NCBI RefSeq assembly: GCF_019900845.1
Contig: NZ_CP074570.1
Span: 4,030,001 to 4,094,000 of the forward strand
DNA: 64,000 nucleotides
DNA from: Paraneptunicella aestuarii
Lineage (GTDB): Bacteria; Pseudomonadota; Gammaproteobacteria; Enterobacterales; Alteromonadaceae
Direction: 5' to 3'
Shown: piece after piece, positions 6,024 to 57,166 of the stretch
How positions within the stretch are numbered: position 1 is the first letter of the stretch
How the letters are laid out: the number at the start of each line of letters is the position of its first letter
Notes under the pieces: model-generated
Told to the model about the DNA's origin: nothing
What the model saw: only the letters and a program-made list of their open reading frames with translations
Database searches by the model: none
Position numbers and translations under genes: made by a program

Positions 6024-6953
6024 TTATTCAGCTAAAATCTCACCGTTGGAATTACTCACTCTATTCTTCCCCGCTTTTTTAGAGCGATACAGGTTTTTAT
6101 CCGCTTCTTGCAATAAATCAATTCGCTTGGAATCCTTTTGCGGGTAAATACTCGCCACCCCACCACTAACAGTCACGATACTATCAACCGATGAATATTC
6201 GTGAGGCAATGCTATTTTCATTACGGCTTTTCGAACCCGGTCGGCTAAATCCAGAGCCTTCTTTTCGGGGCAATTAGGCCACACAAAGACAAACTCTTCG
6301 CCGCCATATCGAGCCACGAAATCCCCAGCTCTTCGCGCTTGAGAAGACAAGGCAACAGCCACTCGCGCCAAGCAATCATCTCCAGCAACATGACCGTAAT
6401 TATCGTTGTAAGGTTTAAAGGAATCGATATCAAACATACCGATTGAAATGGGGTACTGATTACGAATAGCTCTGCGCCACTCTTGTTCAAAGGTATCATC
6501 AAAGTAGCGTCGGTTTGGGATCTTGGTTAAACCATCAATATTAACCATTTGCTCCAGCAAATCGGTCTTCAACTTGAGCAAAACCTGATTTCTCACCCGC
6601 GCTTTCACCAACGCCATATTATAAGGTTTGGTCACATAGTCAGCCGCGCCCATATTCAGGCCACGAACCTCGTCATCTGGTGAACATTTACTGGTAGAAA
6701 AGATGATGGGAATGTCTTTTGTTGCAGGGTTCGTCCTTAATTCATGACACACTTCGTAGCCATTCATATCGGGCATGAGTATATCCAGCAAAATGGTATC
6801 GGGAAGCTCATGCTCCGCCAATTCCAAAGCCTCTGCCCCGGAACTGGCGGTTAGAATGTCGAATTCATCCTGAAGTGTATGTATTAACATGTCCTTATTA
6901 ATAGATTCATCGTCAACAATTAATACCGTTGGTCGATTTAACTGACTTCCCAC
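6024..6953 (-). CDS. Response regulator with GGDEF output (PleD-like diguanylate cyclase)
   Basis: 309 residues. A receiver domain covers about residues 8-125: acidic pocket D14-D15, phospho-acceptor D57 in LLDILMPDMNG and conserved K109 in YVTKP. A GGDEF domain follows at about 140-300 with active-site GGEEF at 217-221. An inhibitory I-site RAGD (208-211) stands five residues before it, so c-di-GMP should feed back on the enzyme. Phosphorylation would control c-di-GMP synthesis from two GTP. No histidine kinase is adjacent, so the cognate kinase is unknown. It is convergent with the preceding secreted protein gene. Confidence 0.93.
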   Translation of the reverse strand: MGSQLNRPTVLIVDDESINKDMLIHTLQDEFDILTASSGAEALELAEHELPDTILLDILMPDMNGYEVCHELRTNPATKDIPIIFSTSKCSPDDEVRGLNMGAADYVTKPYNMALVKARVRNQVLLKLKTDLLEQMVNIDGLTKIPNRRYFDDTFEQEWRRAIRNQYPISIGMFDIDSFKPYNDNYGHVAGDDCLARVAVALSSQARRAGDFVARYGGEEFVFVWPNCPEKKALDLADRVRKAVMKIALPHEYSSVDSIVTVSGGVASIYPQKDSKRIDLLQEADKNLYRSKKAGKNRVSNSNGEILAE

Positions 6954-7008
6954 ACAACTACCTTATTTACTCTATTTAGATGAACCCAGAATAAGAACAT
7001 GCTTTGTT

Positions 7009-8406
7009 TTACAGATTTTCCTCGGCAAACTCGGCTAATCTGCTTCGTACCACGCCATCCAGGTTAATATTCGCACTGCCGGAGAAGTTCTTAAACTTCT
7101 CAACCAAATAGGTCAAACCGGAAGTGACTGGAGACAAATAGTTACTATCAATTTGCGCTAAGTTACCGCCACATATAAGTTTAGTACCTTCTCCACAACG
7201 AGTAATAATAGTTTTTAATTGTGATGCTGTCAGATTTTGAGATTCGTCCAGAATGACAATTGCATTCTGAATACTACGACCACGCATGAAGTTCACCGAC
7301 TTAAACTGAATATTGGCCTTCTCCATAATATAGCTCATGGAACCAGTCACATTCTCGTCGTTCTTATGCAACACTTCCAAAGAGTCGGTAATTGCCGCCA
7401 ACCAGGGCGCCATTTTCTCTTCTTCAGTTCCCGGCAAGAAACCAATAGACTCAGCAATTTCCGGCGTGCTTCTGGTGACGATGATCTTGTCGTACATATT
7501 TTTCTCGACCACCATTTCCAAAGCCGCAGCCAACGCCAGCAAGGTTTTACCGCTACCAGCCGGGCCGGTCAAAATCACCAGATCAATCTGAGGGTCGAGC
7601 AAGGCATGTAGCGCCATGGCCTGGCCTATGTTTTTCGGGCTAATGCCCCAAGCGCTACGCCCCATCAAACGTTCGTAGCCCATGTCGAGAAGCTCAATGT
7701 TTTTCTCGTCCATGTATTCCACGATCGCGGCAAAATTCTCCGATTGATCCAGAATGAACTCGTTTATGTAGGCCTCTGGCAACACATCACGGCTGATTGT
7801 GTGAATGGTATCGCGGCCTTCAGAACGGCTCTCGACCGATTTTACGCTATCCCAGAAATTGCCTTCAAAACGGTAATAGCCTTTGAACAGGAATTGAATA
7901 TCGCTGATCAGCTGATCGGTTCGATAATCCTCTACCAAGGCCATGCCTGCGCCTTTTGCTTTCAGGCGCATGTTGATGTCTTTGGTCACTAACACCACTT
8001 GTCGAGGCGCTTTGACTTTCTGCAAGTACAACGCCGCGCTAATGATGTTGTTGTCGTTCTCGTTCTTGGTGAACACCTTTTGCTCATCGGTCATCGTATG
8101 ATCAGCAAATATCGACAAACGGCCGGTTGGCGCTGACTCACCAGCGGTTGTGCCAGCTAAACTAACACCATCAACCATTTGTTCTGGCGTTGCATCACGC
8201 AGAACATCTTCCATTGCACGTATCGACACTCGAGCATCGCGGGCAACATCTTTTTTACTGTCTTTAATGTAATCCAGCTCTTCCAATACGGTCATTGGAA
8301 TAACAACGTCATGCTCCTTGAAAGATAAAAAAGCGAGAGGTTCGTGAAGAAGAATATTGGTATCGAGTACGTATAGTTTGGTTTGAGAGGCAGGTTCTTT
8401 TGGCAT
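7009..8406 (-). CDS. PhoH-family ATPase with N-terminal PIN domain
   Basis: 465 residues in two domains. The N-terminal PIN-type nuclease domain (about 10-150) starts LYVLDTNILLHEP, with D15 as first metal ligand and further acidic residues such as the D of VLVTKDINMR. The C-terminal PhoH ATPase (about 245-465) has Walker A GPAGSGKT at 281-288 and Walker B VILDE near 384-388. This PIN-PhoH order (YlaK/PhoH2-like) is associated with RNA unwinding and cleavage in studied cases; that role here is inferred. A ribosome site GGAG lies before ATG 8406. Confidence 0.92.
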   Translation of the reverse strand: MPKEPASQTKLYVLDTNILLHEPLAFLSFKEHDVVIPMTVLEELDYIKDSKKDVARDARVSIRAMEDVLRDATPEQMVDGVSLAGTTAGESAPTGRLSIFADHTMTDEQKVFTKNENDNNIISAALYLQKVKAPRQVVLVTKDINMRLKAKGAGMALVEDYRTDQLISDIQFLFKGYYRFEGNFWDSVKSVESRSEGRDTIHTISRDVLPEAYINEFILDQSENFAAIVEYMDEKNIELLDMGYERLMGRSAWGISPKNIGQAMALHALLDPQIDLVILTGPAGSGKTLLALAAALEMVVEKNMYDKIIVTRSTPEIAESIGFLPGTEEEKMAPWLAAITDSLEVLHKNDENVTGSMSYIMEKANIQFKSVNFMRGRSIQNAIVILDESQNLTASQLKTIITRCGEGTKLICGGNLAQIDSNYLSPVTSGLTYLVEKFKNFSGSANINLDGVVRSRLAEFAEENL

Positions 8407-47461: not shown

Positions 47462-49432
47462 ATGGCGCAGATCCTGAATACACAAACAGCGACTCAGACG
47501 ATCACCAATAGTTCTCAGCAACTTGGTGATGTAGCGCTATCCAAGCTTCAAGGGCAACTGGCACAACTGCAACCCACTGCCAATGGCGGCGCTCAATTAG
47601 TATTAAACGGACAAGCCATTAGCCTGCCACGTCTCCCGCAAAACGATAGAAGCCTGCAACAAACCCAGCAGGTCAAACTGAATATATCGCAGCAAAGTAC
47701 ACAAACCTTTTTGGAATTGGTCAAACCAGGCAATACAACCCAATCATTGCAATTAAGCCCTACCCAAGGGAAGCAATTGCTGAATGTTATCGCCAACAGC
47801 CCTAGCGTACTTGCAAACTACACGCCCGGTGTTATCGAAGCCAAAGTATTAAAAGTGGCAGGCGACCAATTAATGCTACAAGTGAGCGGTAAAACGCTTA
47901 CTTTGAATGTCCCTAATGCTTCAGCGCAATTTAAAGAAGGCCAGTTGATATCATTGCGACTGCTGGCAAAACAGGATAGCTGGCAGTTAGAAATCAAAGA
48001 TCCCAAGCAAGGTGCCGATTCCGCCAAGCAAATACAACCAACGGCTCGCCAATTGCCTCAAGTATTAGCGGCAACCTTGCCTCGGAACACGCCATTGATG
48101 TTGGATAACCAAGATAAAGTCGCTCACCTGAATATTCAGCGAGTGCTGCCCTCTTCGTTACAAATGGGATTTAAGCCGGAAATGCCGGGACTGCCTACAT
48201 TCAGCATCGACAAACATCAGCAGTTGAAGATGAGCTGGAGCCAATCAGAACAGGTTTTAGCCAAACTGCCACTAGAAGGTGGATTAAAACAAAAAGCCAT
48301 TGATGTGGTCGCAGGAAGCATGATTCAAAGCAACGCCAGTAATCCGATTAATGCCGGTCAAACCCGATTATCGCCAGAGCAAATAGGCAAAATGCAGATT
48401 AGCCAGGAACTGGCGATGGAAATGACGACTCAGGCAGATAAAACCGCCGTAAGAGCACTTGCCAGAGAAACCATTCTGGCTTCTGTCGATGGCAACAAGA
48501 TCCGCTCCGACTTACAACCACTCATGCGAGGACTACAAGCCAAAGCCGATTCACCCAGTTTCCTCATCAACAATCTGGAAAAGTCGTTGAGCAGTATTGT
48601 TAGCCAGTTGAACTCCCCTATTGGCGAGTATGTCTCGGAAATGAGCAAACTGATCAGCAATGACAAACTGAATCAGGCCAATGGGCAAATAACCGCTCAA
48701 GAGATCAAACAGCTCTTAACTGCGGCACCATTACCTGTTACGCCGTCAACCATAAACAGCCCACCACCACAGGCAAACTTTCTGGCTGGCTTAATGGGAA
48801 TGCTGCAAGTGTCGTTAGCCGCGAGACTAATGCGGCAACAGCCGGAACATTTGGACAAACTCACCCAATTGCTGGTGCCATCGCTGATAGCAAGTGATGG
48901 TAAAACCGATGGCAAGCAAAAAGTCAGTAAGAGTCTGAGCGACTTCTTTCAAGCCGACAGCAAGCTTCAGATATTAAAGAATATCGATAAGCTGTTATCC
49001 GGACATCAGTTCAATAAACTCAGTAATATGGAATCCCAGCTACAAGGGCAAGACAGCCTGTATTATGTGTTGCCCATTGGCGATAACGGACAACGCAAAG
49101 ATTTAGAACTGCTAATAAAGCGGGAACAGGAAAAAGACCCCAAAACCAACAAAGCCAAGGTCAAAGGGACGTATTGGGCGCTCACCATGAAATTACCGGT
49201 CGGCGATATTGGTGAGATTCTGGCAAAAGCGAAAATTAACGGAAACAATCTGGATTTGGATTTCTATACCTCGAATGATGCCACCAAAATACTGGTGTTT
49301 AACTTTATTCCTGTTCTTAAAAAACGCTTTGAACAACTGGGCATTGATATGGGCAACTGCCGCTGCCAGTTAGGCAAAATTCCCGAAGCGTTACAACAGC
49401 GTCCTTATCACCTGTTTGAGGCAAGAGCATGA
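47462..49432 (+). CDS. fliK: Flagellar hook-length control protein (FliK type)
   Basis: 656 residues. The long N-terminal part is Gln/Ser/Thr-rich, low in charge and partly repetitive, as in molecular-ruler proteins. The C-terminal domain (about 525-656) is the FliK/hook-length control domain (YYVLPIGDNGQRKDLELLIK, then GNNLDLDFYTSNDATK). FliK proteins switch the export apparatus substrate from hook to filament through FlhB. The next gene encodes a free FlhB C-terminal domain, which supports the call. It may be a second FliK-like paralogue; the main flagellar operon is not in view. Confidence 0.82.
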   Translation: MAQILNTQTATQTITNSSQQLGDVALSKLQGQLAQLQPTANGGAQLVLNGQAISLPRLPQNDRSLQQTQQVKLNISQQSTQTFLELVKPGNTTQSLQLSPTQGKQLLNVIANSPSVLANYTPGVIEAKVLKVAGDQLMLQVSGKTLTLNVPNASAQFKEGQLISLRLLAKQDSWQLEIKDPKQGADSAKQIQPTARQLPQVLAATLPRNTPLMLDNQDKVAHLNIQRVLPSSLQMGFKPEMPGLPTFSIDKHQQLKMSWSQSEQVLAKLPLEGGLKQKAIDVVAGSMIQSNASNPINAGQTRLSPEQIGKMQISQELAMEMTTQADKTAVRALARETILASVDGNKIRSDLQPLMRGLQAKADSPSFLINNLEKSLSSIVSQLNSPIGEYVSEMSKLISNDKLNQANGQITAQEIKQLLTAAPLPVTPSTINSPPPQANFLAGLMGMLQVSLAARLMRQQPEHLDKLTQLLVPSLIASDGKTDGKQKVSKSLSDFFQADSKLQILKNIDKLLSGHQFNKLSNMESQLQGQDSLYYVLPIGDNGQRKDLELLIKREQEKDPKTNKAKVKGTYWALTMKLPVGDIGEILAKAKINGNNLDLDFYTSNDATKILVFNFIPVLKKRFEQLGIDMGNCRCQLGKIPEALQQRPYHLFEARA

Positions 49433-49779
49433 GCGAAAGCGAGAAAGAGCAAGTAGAAGAGCCAGGAACAGAGGGCAGCCAAAAAGAAAAGCGTCAGGCT
49501 GTTGGCATCAAGTACGAACAAGGTGAAACACCCAAAATCGTTGCCAAAGGCTTTGGCGATCTGGCAGACGAAATTGTTGCTCTGGCAAAAGAAAACGGTG
49601 TGCTGGTGCATGAAGATGAGCACCTTAGCGACTTTTTGGCTCGTTTGGATTTAGGGCAGGAAATCCCACCAGAGCTGTATTATGTGATTGCTGAGCTCAT
49701 TGCTTTTTCTTATGTATTGCAAGGCAAATTCCCCGATAGCTGGAAAACACTACATAACAAAGTGTCGGAACAGGCTTAG
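49429..49779 (+). CDS. Free-standing FlhB C-terminal-domain protein (FhlB type)
   Basis: 116 residues. After an acidic, charged N-terminal tail (about 1-30), residues 31-110 match the cytoplasmic domain of the type III export switch FlhB/YscU: GIKYEQGETPKIVAKG, ALAKENGVLVHEDEHLSDFLARLDLGQ split over helices, then IPPELYYVIAELIAF. There is no membrane domain and no NPTH autocleavage site, so it corresponds to the part of FlhB after cleavage. It overlaps the fliK stop by four bases and may modify substrate switching. Confidence 0.88.
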   Translation: MSESEKEQVEEPGTEGSQKEKRQAVGIKYEQGETPKIVAKGFGDLADEIVALAKENGVLVHEDEHLSDFLARLDLGQEIPPELYYVIAELIAFSYVLQGKFPDSWKTLHNKVSEQA

Positions 49780-49853: not shown

Positions 49854-49958
49854 GTTATCCATTGAAACTCATGAGCAGACCCTCCGTCGCAGGGATGCGA
49901 CGGTGGAGCTTCCATGGATGGATTCACAGCGAGTCTGCGATGATTTTCTATGGATAAC
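49854..49958. repeat. MITE-like palindromic element, copy B
   Basis: The ends form an 18-base inverted repeat with two mismatches (49854-49871 with 49941-49958; outer eight bases GTTATCCA/TGGATAAC perfect). The interior has a perfect hairpin CCGTCGCA/TGCGACGG (49884-49903). The right 56 bases match copy A (8744-8867) at about 44 of 56 positions, while the central hairpin differs in sequence but not in plan. It lies 29 bases beyond the 3' end of the pigment synthetase gene and could also act in transcript termination. Confidence 0.75.
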
Positions 49959-49987: not shown

Positions 49988-52900
49988 TCAAGAGGCGTTA
50001 ATCTCATCCCAAATCGCATCAGCCAGCTCTTTGCTGCCTTTTTCCTTCAATAACTCATAATGATCCGACTGCAAATGAATGGTTTGCGGAGGCGTTACCG
50101 AGAAACTGGCCGCATTTTCAATAAAGGAATAGTTGTCACCTGAGGCTTTAAAAATGCGAATAGGCGCTTTTATCTTACGCTCATGCAACTCTTCAAAACT
50201 GTATTTAAAATCGTAAGTTTGGGTCACGATGTTCACTATCCGCCTCACCAGCAAAGGCTCAAGATGACGGAAACGACTACAAATGAAGTTCACAAAACTG
50301 GCTTCATCAACAGTTTGCTCCAAACAGGGCTTTAGCATAGGGCTATGGATATTGTGCGCAAACACCGAGAACAAAATAGTCACAAAGACCGGGTTATCGA
50401 AGTCAGCTTCACCTTCATTTTGCTCTTCCAGCTCAGAGTAAATCTTGGGTGAACCCGGAGCGATCAAGTACAAAGACTCAATCTCATCACCAGCTTGCTC
50501 CATCTGATGTGCCGTTTCAAAAGCAACACGCGAACCGAAAGAATAGCCCCATAAGGTATAAGGCCCTTCCGGCTGAATACGCTTGATTTCCACGATATCT
50601 TCCGCCGCCATGTCTTGAATCGTGGCGTAAGGCGCTTCACCTGCGTTAATACCCTTGGATTGCACGCCGTAAAAGCCGCGCTTTGGCTCCATCAACTCAG
50701 CTAAACGACGTAAATTCATCGGGTAGCCACCTAATCCCGGCCAGCAAAAAATTGGTGTAGCCTCTACGTCATTCATCTTGATCAAACGAGAAACCGGTTC
50801 CGTATTCTCGCTCTCAATCCACTTGGCAAACTGCGCGATAGTCGGGTACTGAAATAAGACCTGCAATGGAAAGTTAGATTGAAACGCAGAGTTAATACGG
50901 TTAACCAATGCCACCGCCATTAAAGAGTTACCGCCCGTTTCAAAGAAATCATCTGCCGCGGAAGCAGAATCCCACTTCATCACATCTTTCCAGATTTTCC
51001 CGAGGCGCTTTTCAGTGTCTGTTTCTAAAGGCACGAATTCACTGCCCGATGAACATTGCTCCACTTCTTTAGAACTGGACAGTGCCACGTAATCAACCTT
51101 GCCATTGGCTGTCTGAGGCAGGTTGTTCATGATCAATACTTTGTTAGGCACCATAAATGAGGGTAATTGCTGACCTAAATCATCACGTAGTATTTCCGCC
51201 GGCCCTTTCATATGCACGGCGTCTTCACGCATCCCTTCACTGACATATTGTGCCTGGCTGATATGCCCACCGATGCAAAAATAGAATGCATCCATAGGAT
51301 CATTCACAGCTTCCAGAATCGCCCTCATTTTACGCGCTGAAGGCAAGTCATTTCCTGATTTGGAGCTATAGCCGGAAGACATCATCCCCAACAATAAATC
51401 GTTACTTTGAAATGAATGCAGTTTGCGTCCCAAATTAATATAGTGCATCCACTCAGGCGCACCATTGCTGATCATGGCAATACCAAAACTGGCGCGGTCA
51501 TACACTTGCTGGTTAATGGCGATCACTTCTTTACGAGCAATCAGTTCGCTACCTATTAATTCAAATTCACCATCAGCATAGCGATACATGCCTTGCGGCA
51601 TTCCCGGCACATAATTGGCGTGAGTTTGCACATATAAATCAACATGGGGAGACGGCTGCATTTGTTCCAAAGAAGCGATTTCAAACTGCCCCATGTAGTA
51701 ATCGTAGTCGTCACCATCGTACCAATCAGGCAGTTTTTCATCATATGATGACAGCCCAATTGCGAGTCCAAATTCAGGCAATTTCTCATCGAACACACCC
51801 AGCATATGCCCAGTTTCCATTTCCAACACTTCCAGAATGTTGTTCTTGTAAACAGGCTCGATACCGTCATGTTTACCAAGAAAATGAAGATGGATTGTTG
51901 GTGCTTTGGCTTGAGCTTGAGGCTTTTTAGCCACTAACACCAGTTCATGGGACACAGGGTGGTAGTAATAAATGCCGGATTCCAGATCGAACAACTGATG
52001 AATTTCCAGATAGATTTGCGTGGCATATAACGCACCGGGAGACGCAAAGGCATATTTGGGCAACAAACGCTGCTCACTTTTAAACTGCCCAAAATAGCGA
52101 AGCAAAGTGCCAAACTCATCAAAGCTGAGCTCAGTCAATGGGCGCGATTCACCTTTGAATTGCTTTGGTTTCAGTAATGTTTTTAAGTCATCTACCGTAA
52201 CGATTTCGCCATCAAAGAAGCGATAGGTTTTACGCCCAAACGCATATCGACGTTGTTCTTTAGTCGCCTCATTATTCGGTAGCGGAATATGTAATCGGTC
52301 TTTACACAGGTTCTCGCTACGGCAACCGGCATTAGATAACTGTGCCTTGACCTGAACTTTGTTAGATTTGGATTGATGGTGGGAGTCGTGATTGCCCTGA
52401 TCCATCAAGGCTGCTTCCTTCTCATTCAATTGCACACAGGCGATCAGGTTCTGGTATCCCGTGCGAGGATCATTCTTAACCAGAACAGCCGCGGTTTTAA
52501 TCCATGAATGGGCTTCGATAGCATGACGTATTTCGTCAAGCTCAACGCGATAACCGCGAAGTTTTATCTGGTTATCAACACGCCCTGCAAAATGCACATC
52601 GCCTTTGCTGTCTTTTTGTGCCAAATCACCAGTGCGGTAAATGCGCTCATATCCGGGTTCATCAGAAAAGGGGTTGGCCTGAAACTTTTCTTCGGTCAAG
52701 TCAGGTCGGTTCAAGTACCCTCGCGCTACCTGAACACCAGACACACACAACTCGCCGATTTCCCCTTCCTTTGCCAGTTTACCTGTCAACGTCACAATGT
52801 AATAACGAGTGTTATCAACGGCCTGACCGATGGAGATAGCATAGGGGTAATGCGAAATCTGATCTTTATCCAGTACGAAAATCGACGTATTGATACTGCA

Positions 52901-53884
52901 TTCACTAGGGCCGTAGAGATTTATCAACTCGCACTTTCTTAACGTATAGAAAAACTCCTGTGACAAGCTTTTAGTTAAGGTTTCGCCACCACTAAAGACC
53001 TTGTTTAAAGAAGTGCAATCCACAAAAGAGGGATTATCCACCAGAGCCTGTAACAAGGTCGGAACGCACTGCAAGGAAGTGACTTGATGGCGCACTATGG
53101 TGTTAATCAAAGCATCGGGATCGCGATAACATCCGGGAGGCCCGACCACGACCCGACAACCAAACACCGGTGCCAGGATCTCCCACTGCGCCGCATCAAA
53201 ACTCATGGGCGTTTTTTGCAACACCGCATCGTTTTCCCCAAATTCAAATGTGCGTAGTAAATACTGCATTTGATTGACGATATTGCGATGCTCGATCATC
53301 ACGCCCTTGGGCTTACCCGTGCTTCCCGATGTATAAATAATGTAGGCTAATCCATCAACACTCGGCCTCACAGGCCATGACAAGGCACGATTATCCTCAT
53401 CATCAATTTCAGTAGATGGAATATCTTCAGGCGAGAAAACCTTAACATTTGGCGGCAAAATGGCGTTAATTTGGCCTTTTAAATGACTTTGCGCATAAAT
53501 TGTGGTGATCCCTGAGTCCTCGATCATGTAACGAATACGCTCAGAAGGATAATCAGGAGATAAAGGTAAATAGGCTTTACCTGAACTTAAGATGCCCCAG
53601 GCTCCACACATCATTGTAACCGAAGGTTCACAATATAACCCTATGCATTCACTCTCAGACTGATTATGTATGGCGATATAATTACCAATGCGGCAAATTT
53701 CCCGATAAAAGTTCAGGTAATTCAATTCACGATTGCCATCAACAACAGCGCATCGTTCGGGACTACTCAGAATTTGCTGTTCCAGCATATCAATCAAAGT
53801 GCCAGAGGTATGAATCTCTGCTTGCCACAATTCGTCATTTTGTGCATCACTTTGATTTTGAGCCTTAATTTCCACCATAGTCAT
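49988..53884 (-). CDS. Single-module NRPS, A-Ox-T-TE: probable indigoidine synthetase
   Basis: 1298 residues, close to Streptomyces BpsA. Domains: adenylation about 25-485 (A3 YTSGSTGKPKG 184-194; A8 KLRGYRVELDEI near 441-452); a nitroreductase-like FMN oxidase about 495-885 inserted between A8 and A10; adenylation end NGKVDY (927-932, K929); thiolation about 950-1025 with S987 in FETGGNSL; thioesterase about 1040-1298 with S1115 in WGYSFGS. This order is that of indigoidine synthetases, which adenylate L-glutamine, cyclise and oxidise it, and pair two units into a blue pigment. Pocket residues D230, A231, W234, Q272, F297, G299, L323, I331, N332 resemble a glutamine code. The thiolation Ser needs a phosphopantetheinyl transferase encoded elsewhere. 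A transporter and HAD phosphatase diverge from it. Confidence 0.88.
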   Translation of the reverse strand: MTMVEIKAQNQSDAQNDELWQAEIHTSGTLIDMLEQQILSSPERCAVVDGNRELNYLNFYREICRIGNYIAIHNQSESECIGLYCEPSVTMMCGAWGILSSGKAYLPLSPDYPSERIRYMIEDSGITTIYAQSHLKGQINAILPPNVKVFSPEDIPSTEIDDEDNRALSWPVRPSVDGLAYIIYTSGSTGKPKGVMIEHRNIVNQMQYLLRTFEFGENDAVLQKTPMSFDAAQWEILAPVFGCRVVVGPPGCYRDPDALINTIVRHQVTSLQCVPTLLQALVDNPSFVDCTSLNKVFSGGETLTKSLSQEFFYTLRKCELINLYGPSECSINTSIFVLDKDQISHYPYAISIGQAVDNTRYYIVTLTGKLAKEGEIGELCVSGVQVARGYLNRPDLTEEKFQANPFSDEPGYERIYRTGDLAQKDSKGDVHFAGRVDNQIKLRGYRVELDEIRHAIEAHSWIKTAAVLVKNDPRTGYQNLIACVQLNEKEAALMDQGNHDSHHQSKSNKVQVKAQLSNAGCRSENLCKDRLHIPLPNNEATKEQRRYAFGRKTYRFFDGEIVTVDDLKTLLKPKQFKGESRPLTELSFDEFGTLLRYFGQFKSEQRLLPKYAFASPGALYATQIYLEIHQLFDLESGIYYYHPVSHELVLVAKKPQAQAKAPTIHLHFLGKHDGIEPVYKNNILEVLEMETGHMLGVFDEKLPEFGLAIGLSSYDEKLPDWYDGDDYDYYMGQFEIASLEQMQPSPHVDLYVQTHANYVPGMPQGMYRYADGEFELIGSELIARKEVIAINQQVYDRASFGIAMISNGAPEWMHYINLGRKLHSFQSNDLLLGMMSSGYSSKSGNDLPSARKMRAILEAVNDPMDAFYFCIGGHISQAQYVSEGMREDAVHMKGPAEILRDDLGQQLPSFMVPNKVLIMNNLPQTANGKVDYVALSSSKEVEQCSSGSEFVPLETDTEKRLGKIWKDVMKWDSASAADDFFETGGNSLMAVALVNRINSAFQSNFPLQVLFQYPTIAQFAKWIESENTEPVSRLIKMNDVEATPIFCWPGLGGYPMNLRRLAELMEPKRGFYGVQSKGINAGEAPYATIQDMAAEDIVEIKRIQPEGPYTLWGYSFGSRVAFETAHQMEQAGDEIESLYLIAPGSPKIYSELEEQNEGEADFDNPVFVTILFSVFAHNIHSPMLKPCLEQTVDEASFVNFICSRFRHLEPLLVRRIVNIVTQTYDFKYSFEELHERKIKAPIRIFKASGDNYSFIENAASFSVTPPQTIHLQSDHYELLKEKGSKELADAIWDEINAS

Positions 53885-54565: not shown

Positions 54566-55489
54566 ATGACCAAGGGAAATACTTGGCTAAATGTTTTTTT
54601 AACCGCACTGGCTCCCACAATGTGGGGCAGTACTTATATTGTCACAACAGAGCTGTTGCCTGACAACATGCCGCTATTAGCCTCAACGATTCGAGCACTT
54701 CCAGCAGGCTTATTGCTATTGTTAATCTGCAGAACGATGCCATCGGGAAAGTGGTGGGGAAGGATTGCCATTCTGGGTGCGCTCAATATAGGTGCTTTTT
54801 TCTACTGCCTGTTTATGACCGCCTATTATCTACCCGGAGGAGTGGCTTCGTTAGTTATGTCGGTGCAACCCATGATCGTCATTGCCCTAAGTGCGCTGGT
54901 GCTAAATACCCGATTCCTTAAAGTTCATATTTACGCTTCACTTCTGGGCATTGCAGGCATTGCGCTCCTGGTTCTTAACTCCACCATCAATTTAAACTGG
55001 CAAGGCGTAGTGTCGGGTTTAATTGGCACCACCTGCATGGCAACCGGCATCGTTTTTACCAAGCATTGGGGAAGGCCAGAAGGTTTGTCTTTACTGGGGT
55101 TTACTGGCTGGCAACTGACGTTTGGTGGTTTAATGCTACTTCCTATTGCATTATTTCAAGAAGGCATACCCGCAACACTAACGACAACCAATATCGCAGG
55201 CTATGCCTATTTGAGTCTGGTTGGCGCTTTGCTTGGCTATATGCTGTGGTTTAGGGGAATTGAAAAGCTACCCGCCGTTACCATTTCTTTCCTGGGTTTT
55301 CTTAGTAGTCTGGCAGCATTAATTTTAGGTTATGTTTTTCTGGATCAGACCTTCACCACATTACAAATACTTGGCGCAATTGCCATTGTTGCCTGTGTTT
55401 ATCTCTCGACACCCAAACCTCAAGCGGAAGTGAAAGAAGACATAGTTAACGCCGATGATACGTCGAAGCTGGAGGAGCAAAGAGCCTGA
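54566..55489 (+). CDS. EamA/DMT-family transporter
   Basis: 307 residues with ten hydrophobic spans and the two EamA repeats. PTMWGSTYIVTTELLP in the first span and LVGALLGYMLWFRGIEKLP with FLSSLAALILGYVFLDQ in the second half are typical of the drug/metabolite transporter family. The C-terminal tail is acidic and soluble. It diverges from the synthetase gene and precedes a HAD phosphatase gene on the same strand (134 bases). It may export the pigment or a precursor, or take up an amino-acid substrate; the substrate cannot be read from sequence. Confidence 0.88.
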   Translation: MTKGNTWLNVFLTALAPTMWGSTYIVTTELLPDNMPLLASTIRALPAGLLLLLICRTMPSGKWWGRIAILGALNIGAFFYCLFMTAYYLPGGVASLVMSVQPMIVIALSALVLNTRFLKVHIYASLLGIAGIALLVLNSTINLNWQGVVSGLIGTTCMATGIVFTKHWGRPEGLSLLGFTGWQLTFGGLMLLPIALFQEGIPATLTTTNIAGYAYLSLVGALLGYMLWFRGIEKLPAVTISFLGFLSSLAALILGYVFLDQTFTTLQILGAIAIVACVYLSTPKPQAEVKEDIVNADDTSKLEEQRA

Positions 55490-55623: not shown

Positions 55624-56316
55624 ATGCAAAGAAGTCGTCAGTTTCAACCTGTTGTTATTTTTGATCTAGATGGAACCTTATTCGATACACCAAGGGCAAT
55701 CGTTGAAGCCTTTACCTACACCTTCAATGAATTACAGGAAGAAATACCTCAACATCGCAATATTCGCTGCACCATAGGCATGCCATTAGAGAAAGCGTTT
55801 GCGTCATTAATGGAGCTTCCGGTAGAACATGAACGTGTCGACAACGCCGTTCAGGAATACCAAAGACAGTTTCGTCAACGAATATTGCCCAAGGCAGAAG
55901 AGCTTCTTTTTGCTGGTGTCACTGAAGGCCTGGATAAACTACTTGAACAAGGCATGGCGTTATCGGTTGCCACTAGCAAATTTGCCAGAAGCGCTAACGC
56001 TTTATTGGAATCTGCAAAAATCGACAGATATTTTGACATTGTAGTCTGTGCCGATGAGGTGACAAACACGAAACCGCACCCAGAGTCAGGATATAAGGTT
56101 CTCGATCACTATAAAGCCAATGTTGACGCCGCCATTATGGTGGGTGATACCACTCATGACATGCTGATGGCGAAAGCAATGGGATGTGCCGGGCTAGCGG
56201 TAACTTATGGTGTCCATACTCCGGAAACGCTGCGAACCAGCGATCCAAAATGGTTAGTGGACTCATTTGATCAAGTTACTGACGTTATCCTGCAACACTT
56301 TTCCGTTTCAGATTAA
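55624..56316 (+). CDS. HAD-superfamily phosphatase (Gph-like), possible IndB equivalent
   Basis: 230 residues. All four HAD motifs are visible: DLDGTLFDT (motif I), VATSKF (II), the Lys in TKPHPESG (III) and MVGDTTHDM (IV). The alpha-helical cap at about residues 25-95 resembles phosphoglycolate phosphatase-type enzymes. Indigoidine clusters in Dickeya and Streptomyces carry a HAD-type phosphatase, IndB, beside the synthetase, so a supporting role in pigment production is possible here; a housekeeping phosphatase is the alternative. A ribosome site AGGGGG precedes ATG 55624. Confidence 0.85.
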   Translation: MQRSRQFQPVVIFDLDGTLFDTPRAIVEAFTYTFNELQEEIPQHRNIRCTIGMPLEKAFASLMELPVEHERVDNAVQEYQRQFRQRILPKAEELLFAGVTEGLDKLLEQGMALSVATSKFARSANALLESAKIDRYFDIVVCADEVTNTKPHPESGYKVLDHYKANVDAAIMVGDTTHDMLMAKAMGCAGLAVTYGVHTPETLRTSDPKWLVDSFDQVTDVILQHFSVSD

Positions 56317-56344: not shown

Positions 56345-56372
56345 AAACAGCCCATTAATAAATGGGCTGTTT
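56345..56372. terminator. Bidirectional terminator-like hairpin overlapping the tautomerase stop
   Basis: Perfect 12-bp stem AAACAGCCCATT (56345-56356) / AATGGGCTGTTT (56361-56372) with a 4-base loop. It lies 28 bases after the HAD stop. On the minus strand its first arm encodes the last codons of the tautomerase gene (KQPIY stop). T-runs are short in both directions. Confidence 0.6.
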
Positions 56373-56579
56373 AATCACTTTATCTGGCTTCGCGTTGATT
56401 TCAACATCAACCACTGTCTCTTGCCATTTCTCAGGTTCAATTTGCTCCAGAACGATAGATACAACCTTATCAGGGCAATCAAACACTTTAACCATCGTCG
56501 CAGTCATCTCATCAATAAGCACCTTTTTTTCTTCTGGAGAGATATCTGTCGGAAAACACTTAATATTGATATGAGGCAT
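56355..56579 (-). CDS. 4-oxalocrotonate tautomerase-family protein (PptA-like)
   Basis: 74 residues (E. coli PptA 77). MPHINIKCFPTDIS is the N-terminus of the PptA branch; removal of Met leaves the catalytic Pro1. SIVLEQIEPEKWQE is the matching mid-segment. These small trimers or dimers tautomerise keto-enol substrates; the physiological substrate of PptA is unknown. AAGGA lies before the ATG. It faces the HAD gene and may or may not belong to the pigment locus. Confidence 0.88.
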   Translation of the reverse strand: MPHINIKCFPTDISPEEKKVLIDEMTATMVKVFDCPDKVVSIVLEQIEPEKWQETVVDVEINAKPDKVIKQPIY

Positions 56580-56737: not shown

Positions 56738-57166
56738 TTATTTCTTATGCAGGCTAATGAGTAGTTCCGCTTCTGCGCGAGGAATGTCGCACTCCTGCAT
56801 AATCTCCTCAATTGATGCACCAGCGGCCACCAATTTATTGGCTTTAGTATATAGAGGGCTACTGGCTTCCTGATGTTCAAACTCAACCTGTCGGTTGGCT
56901 ATCTCAGTTTGTTTATTTTCCAGCGTTCTGATACTGGCTTCCAGTTCCTTGACCCGGTTTCCCAGCCCCAACATACCAGTGCGTATCTCGTGCAACATAT
57001 CTTGCAGTTGATTATAGCCTTTCTCGATACTTGGCTGCCGTTGCTCCAGTTGTTGTAACTTCTGCTGTAATTGCTGACGATTTTGCTCACCACGCAAATA
57101 GAAGAACACAGCCAAAATAATAGCGATGCCCGCAACTAATAGCGAAATGTACTGCATTATCAACAA
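56738..57166 (-). CDS. DUF2802-type membrane-anchored coiled-coil protein
   Basis: 142 residues. One N-terminal membrane span (YISLLVAGIAIILAVFFYL), a coiled coil rich in Gln/Glu (about 25-100), and a C-terminal helical motif (LVAAGASIEEIMQECDIPRAEAELLI) typical of DUF2802. TTG 57166 has AGAGG eight bases upstream; ATG 57157 is the alternative. Such genes commonly follow cheW in polar-flagellate gammaproteobacteria, so a role in the polar chemotaxis/flagellar system is likely but undefined. Confidence 0.82.
   Translation of the reverse strand: MLIMQYISLLVAGIAIILAVFFYLRGEQNRQQLQQKLQQLEQRQPSIEKGYNQLQDMLHEIRTGMLGLGNRVKELEASIRTLENKQTEIANRQVEFEHQEASSPLYTKANKLVAAGASIEEIMQECDIPRAEAELLISLHKK

Follow-up and report, generated by a model that had tools for sequence, protein, structure and literature searches.

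Known relatives of the system considered here are gene clusters built around an indigoidine-type synthetase. In minimycin synthesis, as set out in PMC8724604, the synthetase makes a ring that either couples spontaneously to indigoidine or is tautomerised, in which case the PsuG-like MinB attaches the tautomerised ring to ribose phosphate and MinC, with its HAD and DUF4243 parts, completes the product; a UPRT and a transporter serve self-protection. The synthetase gene indC of Photorhabdus laumondii is described as silent, promoter exchange having led to indigoidine (PMC10983751), and PecM is presented as the indigoidine efflux transporter of Dickeya (PMC6391409). In the present work we describe a synthetase of this kind from the gammaproteobacterium Paraneptunicella aestuarii, encoded at 49988..53884 on the minus strand of a 64,000-nucleotide stretch (contig NZ_CP074570.1, positions 4,030,001 to 4,094,000; hereafter the window), together with the few genes that accompany it. 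The initial annotation of this stretch had proposed a probable indigoidine synthetase in a marine-type gammaproteobacterium, a description that fits the host; to this we add the strand, the partner genes, the islet in which they lie and a second synthetase elsewhere in the genome. As an enzyme it is an unremarkable representative of a known family and kind, and we consider it very probable that it is active and that its islet is a stripped indigoidine cassette, probably acquired laterally.

The gene is a reading frame of 1298 codons without stop or frameshift, and Pfam domains, overall similarity and the oxidase fold bear out the single module of adenylation (A), oxidase (Ox), thiolation (T) and thioesterase (TE) domains in the order A-Ox-T-TE that had been read from it at the outset. 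The adenylation domain up to the insert spans residues ~28-470 (52475..53803; Pfam AMP-binding at 35-391, TIGR01733 at 65-467), the flavin mononucleotide (FMN) oxidase insert residues ~480-895 (51200..52447), and a C-terminal piece of the adenylation domain with motifs A9 and A10 residues 896-932 (51089..51199; Pfam AMP-binding_C at 896-929). The oxidase had been placed between adenylation motifs A8 and A10, and it sits between A8 and A9. The thiolation domain with S987 (50816..51007; Pfam PP-binding at 960-1023) and the thioesterase domain with S1115 and H1275 (50012..50755; Pfam Thioesterase at 1044-1291) complete the module, all on the minus strand. The insert, recognized by its similarity to BmdC and its conserved residues, is predicted to adopt a two-lobed FMN nitroreductase fold, as aligned with 36 of 49 references; its nearest solved sequence is that of BmdC, a thiazoline oxidase.

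The pocket residues of the adenylation domain are D230, A231, W234, Q272, F297, G299, L323, I331 and N332, followed by K. They were compared in an alignment of 170 rows chosen by similarity to the window protein (the window protein itself, 119 other proteins and locus translations), which include duplicates and collapse at 98% identity to 156 distinct rows. The first reading of the pocket as D-A-W-Q-F-G-L-I-N was sound, and the code is typical of the family: DAWQFGLINK stands in 144 of the 156 distinct rows, DAWQFGVINK accounts for 10 more and one other change for the last 2, and even a Corynebacterium relative that is 35% identical keeps DAWQFGLINK unchanged. What proved wrong for this family was the remark that Asp is usual at the ninth position. 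Asn stands there in 156/156 distinct rows, a figure that describes a family gathered by similarity and not glutamine-activating domains at large, and its presence in every row leads us to reject the notion that it is a deviation. The Glu/Gln codes quoted in PMC12283262 end in D-K. As a separate observation, the 35% relative on plasmid pET44827 of Corynebacterium aurimucosum (L011, 5914-9708), which has the same pocket code, is accompanied by UPRT, PRAI, tautomerase, PsuG and EamA genes.

The thiolation and thioesterase serines, which had been reported as intact, are so: S987 and S1115, along with H1275, R551, S615 and Y679, are each present in all distinct rows. Two Ox-domain residues mutated in IdgS are an Arg, R539, and a Ser, S603 (PMC10989907), and a Tyr has been proposed as the general base of this domain (PMC8724604, PMC8795117). 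R539, S603 and the thioesterase S1102 of IdgS align with R551, S615 and S1115 of the window protein. The proposed base presumably carries the number 665, and Y665 corresponds to Y679 in the alignment. Of the 261 columns on which 97% or more of the distinct rows agree, the window protein keeps 256, and judged by this alignment it is a divergent but complete family member.

Its closest matches are P0002 and P0003 (64 and 61% identity), Photorhabdus proteins P0004-P0006 (59-60%) and a protein of Photobacterium galatheae (60%), followed by P0008 at 58% and, among the remaining proteins listed, none above 55%. In a tree of 66 rows (from 106, with actinobacterial rows thinned to about one third and nine duplicate or own-window loci excluded earlier) the window protein joins P0002 and P0003 with an SH-aLRT of 98 and then the Photorhabdus proteins with 91; composition was odd in 38 of these rows, and L010, L011 and L012 formed long branches. 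A second tree with bootstraps, whose 28 rows were hand-picked from the 66 and from which those three long branches were absent (odd composition in 7/28), recovered the same joins at 100/99 and 91/91, the second not reaching a star. Among 394 genomes of the order, 8 held a synthetase, none of them nearer to P0003 than the window protein is. In both trees, which contained no thiazole-pathway modules, the window protein falls among indigoidine-type synthetases, beside those of Photorhabdus; this placement, with the whole-length identity, the pocket code and the partner genes described below, supports the original naming of the gene as a probable indigoidine synthetase. A rival view, in which the oxidase-bearing module handles an amino acid other than glutamine in some other pathway, for example thiazole formation, would find some encouragement in the occurrence of Ox domains in such pathways and in the nearness of BmdC. 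Such a role appears very improbable to us, given that the module matches indigoidine synthetases in code, size, whole-length identity, placement and partners and that Pfam lists no condensation or cyclisation domain in this protein; we have set it aside on placement, code and partners, in trees of the scope just given.

Together with three neighbours the synthetase gene forms an islet of about 7 kb between genes that abut in the other congeneric species. Divergent from the synthetase is a gene for an EamA/DMT transporter of PecM type (54566..55489, plus strand; PF00892), several close matches of which are annotated in their source records as "blue pigment (indigoidine) exporter" or "Protein pecM". 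One match reaches 96%; otherwise the closest are from Endozoicomonas, Vibrio and Xenorhabdus (at most 67%), and the other copy in the host is 53% identical. Its EamA domains, its nearness to named indigoidine exporters and its position adjoining the synthetase identify the putative product as a PecM-type exporter. Next comes a HAD phosphatase of the IndB / MinC-N type (55624..56316, plus strand; PF13419), whose top match by score is from Photobacterium galatheae (57%). We do not take it for an ordinary phosphoglycolate phosphatase, because it scores under all phosphoglycolate phosphatase and PpaX cut-offs among the NCBIfam matches listed (25 of 40) and because its nearest named relatives come mostly from synthetase-bearing taxa. 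The reading frames of both exporter and phosphatase are open. A small tautomerase of 74 amino acids (56355..56579, minus strand; PF01361, E 6.8e-11) completes the set.

The islet is flanked on the left by a gene for an FlhB-C-terminal-like protein (49429..49779, plus strand; PF01312) and on the right by one for a DUF2802 protein of the chemotaxis region (56738..57166, minus strand; PF10975). These genes lie 6,958 bp apart in the window versus 9 bp in G001 (L127), the sole other congeneric species compared, and they are also adjacent in G018 and G023 (L114, L115). The comparison of flanks used a FliK-like query that matched 8 of 10 genomes including the host. Three of the other seven show both genes, G010 and G136 have another gene after the FlhB-like one, and no DUF2802 gene was seen in the short loci of G082 and G175, so that this gene order is not universal in the family of the host. 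In G001 no synthetase was found at E<=1e-200, and there were only distant relatives of the EamA (E 3e-6) and HAD (1.5e-12) genes. The simplest reading of this empty site is that the islet was probably gained by lateral transfer; we infer the direction and the donor, as well as a gain here over a loss in the relatives. Close to the left edge of the islet, beyond the 3' end of the synthetase gene, lies a dispersed repeat of about 90 bp (49864..49953) that has 42 matches in the genome, itself included, at 71-100% identity. A weak, sub-threshold Rfam match to Ysr224 (26.9 bits versus 70) overlaps this repeat. The ends of the islet showed no notable direct or inverted repeats; promoter-like sites numbered 11, under the shuffle mean of 15.7 (sd 4.3), and terminator-like sites 12, over a shuffle mean of 6.4 (sd 2.6).

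How stripped the islet is can be seen from other synthetase loci, the best 80 of 360, of which 66 have at least 7 kb on each side of the synthetase and were searched for BLAST relatives of one query for each partner. Among these well-flanked loci, relatives of the tautomerase occur near the synthetase in 42, PsuG in 35, UPRT in 32, EamA in 27 and HAD in 20, and none (0/66) shows the window's own set, in which EamA, HAD and tautomerase occur but PsuG and UPRT do not. HAD is accompanied by PsuG in 18 of its 20 loci if open frames are counted, and in 19 if the two-frame PsuG of L085 is included. In that locus, from Lonsdalea britannica, PsuG lies in two overlapping pieces in different frames (6953-7818), possibly a pseudogene or a sequencing error. 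Neither PsuG nor UPRT has a match in the window. The DUF4243 part of MinC we take to be PF14027 (Questin_oxidase), and the PF14027 model has no match anywhere in the host genome. That model hits 0/14 control genomes and 5 of 8 synthetase genomes, Photorhabdus and Photobacterium among them, and it was not found in the genomes of Vibrio L015, Marinomonas L045 and Streptomyces L052. The islet, lacking PsuG and DUF4243, is not a complete indABC or minimycin-type cluster, and minimycin from the islet alone is rejected on the same two absences.

We infer the substrate, reaction, export and expression of the islet system from these features as follows. The adenylation domain would activate L-glutamine and load it onto the phosphopantetheine arm of S987, after a phosphopantetheinyl transferase encoded elsewhere in the genome had armed the thiolation domain. 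The thioesterase, through S1115, would release and cyclise the glutamine to 3-aminopiperidine-2,6-dione, and the FMN oxidase would then dehydrogenate the ring; the reverse order, with oxidation before release and cyclisation, has also been proposed. Two rings would couple in air to blue indigoidine, and the divergent PecM-type transporter would export the product or the monomer. Since PsuG, UPRT and DUF4243 are absent from the islet, and DUF4243 from the genome, the islet by itself should lead no further than the ring and the blue dimer. We are confident, short of certainty, in indigoidine as the product.

Several observations weigh against this reading. For indigoidine itself no clear function can be given to the HAD phosphatase and the tautomerase, which belong to the C-nucleoside branch in minimycin synthesis (PMC8724604). 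The frequent company of PsuG makes the islet HAD look like a leftover or a partner of a distant PsuG. The window yielded no MarR/PecS-type gene, and the synthetase gene does not differ in G+C from its surroundings, so that recent transfer finds no support in base composition. Indigoidine was sought and not detected in Photobacterium galatheae, a species with a related cluster (PMC5209532). The window protein departs at 19 of the 394 columns on which 90% or more of the distinct rows agree, versus a median of 7, and as many departures or more occur in 10 of the 156 distinct rows, those of the window protein and the other synthetase of the host included. F613 (codon 52046-52048), two residues before S615, is Tyr in 148/156 distinct rows, Phe in 4 others and Trp in 3, three of these seven being from the family of the host; loss of a catalytic base at this position was considered and dropped, the aligned base being Y679, which is intact.

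Part of this evidence would also suit a silent or decaying relic, intact to the reader of its sequence and unexpressed or unneeded since the host keeps another synthetase. PsuG, UPRT and MarR were lost from the islet or were never there, the window protein diverges at conserved columns more than most rows do, and the Photorhabdus indC gene is reported as silent in the laboratory (PMC10983751). We regard such a relic as unlikely, in view of the uninterrupted 1298 codons, the near-complete retention of the most conserved columns and the open frames of exporter and phosphatase.

The other synthetase just mentioned lies at C1:1421307-1425134, is 55% identical to the window protein and belongs to a fuller locus (L126, C1:1412000-1431500) that is 2.66 Mb from the islet along the contig. 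The order there is PsuG (C1:1420267-1421133, the only PF04227 gene in the genome), synthetase, MarR on the opposite strand, OYE, EamA, UPRT and a PRAI-like gene, with no relative of the HAD or the tautomerase found at this locus; the EamA exporters of the two loci are 53% identical. Duplication inside the genome was rejected, placing the window protein and the second copy in one clade costing 262.7 log-likelihood units (p-AU 5.4e-42, 28 rows), and by these trees the two synthetases belong to different lineages and are not sister duplicates. Among 196 genomes of the host's family, six have a synthetase at E<=1e-200, and the host (G000) alone has two; in the five others the gene has MarR and PsuG beside it. 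Two synthetases per genome are not unique to this host, and among the best 80 loci they also occur in Sphaerimonospora mesophila (L020, L080) and Microbispora corallina (L031, L064); among the 15 of 4,431 literature titles listed, none bore on two copies in one genome. A recurrent cluster of PRAI-like, UPRT, EamA, OYE, usually MarR, synthetase and PsuG genes is seen in L126, L016, L039, L044, L075 (where MarR was not called), L128, L129, L130 and L134, and the product of clusters of this type may be a C-nucleoside. The host genome is very rich in nonribosomal peptide synthetases, with open frames of up to 10,773 amino acids among the A- and T-domain matches, e.g., at C1 2651206-2701000 and 3048347-3100044.

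The presence of this locus raises the idea of a C-nucleoside pathway split between two places, in which the islet would supply synthetase, tautomerase, HAD and exporter, and L126 would supply PsuG as C-glycosynthase and UPRT, giving a ribosylated aminopyridinedione instead of or besides indigoidine. The pairing of HAD with PsuG at other loci, the roles assigned to MinA-D, MinT and Tau in PMC8724604, and the complementary contents of the two loci (HAD and tautomerase in the islet and lacking at L126, the genome's only PsuG at L126 with a UPRT lacking in the window) speak for it, as do Vibrio L015 and Marinomonas L045, whose clusters hold HAD, tautomerase, UPRT and PsuG with no DUF4243 hit in the genome. 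Yet the loci are far apart and of different lineages, clusters of the L126 type occur without HAD and tautomerase (e.g., in Pseudoalteromonas, L039 and L044), and no DUF4243 gene was found in the genome, such that minimycin itself is not expected and a C-nucleoside product would stop short of it. That a branched pathway is shared out between two synthetases of different ancestry, with the islet enzyme feeding the distant PsuG, is in our judgment doubtful, and the split pathway as a whole we hold to be equally so; were it true, a pathway would have been assembled across two loci after lateral gain. Indigoidine as a product is compatible with it.

With the indigoidine cassette as the preferred reading, what slightly lifts an otherwise ordinary family member is the second, distantly related synthetase together with the stripped islet. 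One genome offers a fuller cluster and a stripped cassette, and so a natural comparison of the synthetase in the presence and absence of the C-nucleoside genes by which it is often accompanied. The frequent pairing of HAD and PsuG further suggests that some clusters filed as indigoidine clusters may make C-nucleosides.

Set beside the known systems, the islet synthetase has its nearest named relatives in Photorhabdus, whose IndC (indC, plu2186 in P. laumondii, of which P0004-P0006 are presumably orthologues) has the same module and stands as the next clade in the trees. The Photorhabdus loci L013 and L014 have UPRT, tautomerase, HAD, DUF4243 and PsuG around the gene, as does the Photobacterium galatheae locus, whereas the islet retains just HAD and tautomerase of these, alongside an EamA exporter. 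BpsA / IdgS of Streptomyces lavendulae has the same module and active-site residues at 49% identity. The protein of strain CCM 3239 (L009) has R539, S603, Y665 and S1102 at the IdgS/BpsA numbers, its code is among the 14 of 170 rows that differ from DAWQFGLINK, and its cluster, unlike the islet, includes UPRT, PsuG, OYE and PRPP synthetase. Dickeya indABC with pecS/pecM combines a synthetase, an IndB-type HAD and a PecM-type exporter as the islet does, while IndA (PsuG) and PecS are absent from the islet; this likeness is one of description. Also by description, the minimycin cluster minABCDT shares with the islet the synthetase, the HAD phosphatase, the tautomerase function and the transporter, and differs from it in having PsuG (MinB), UPRT (MinD) and the DUF4243 part of MinC.

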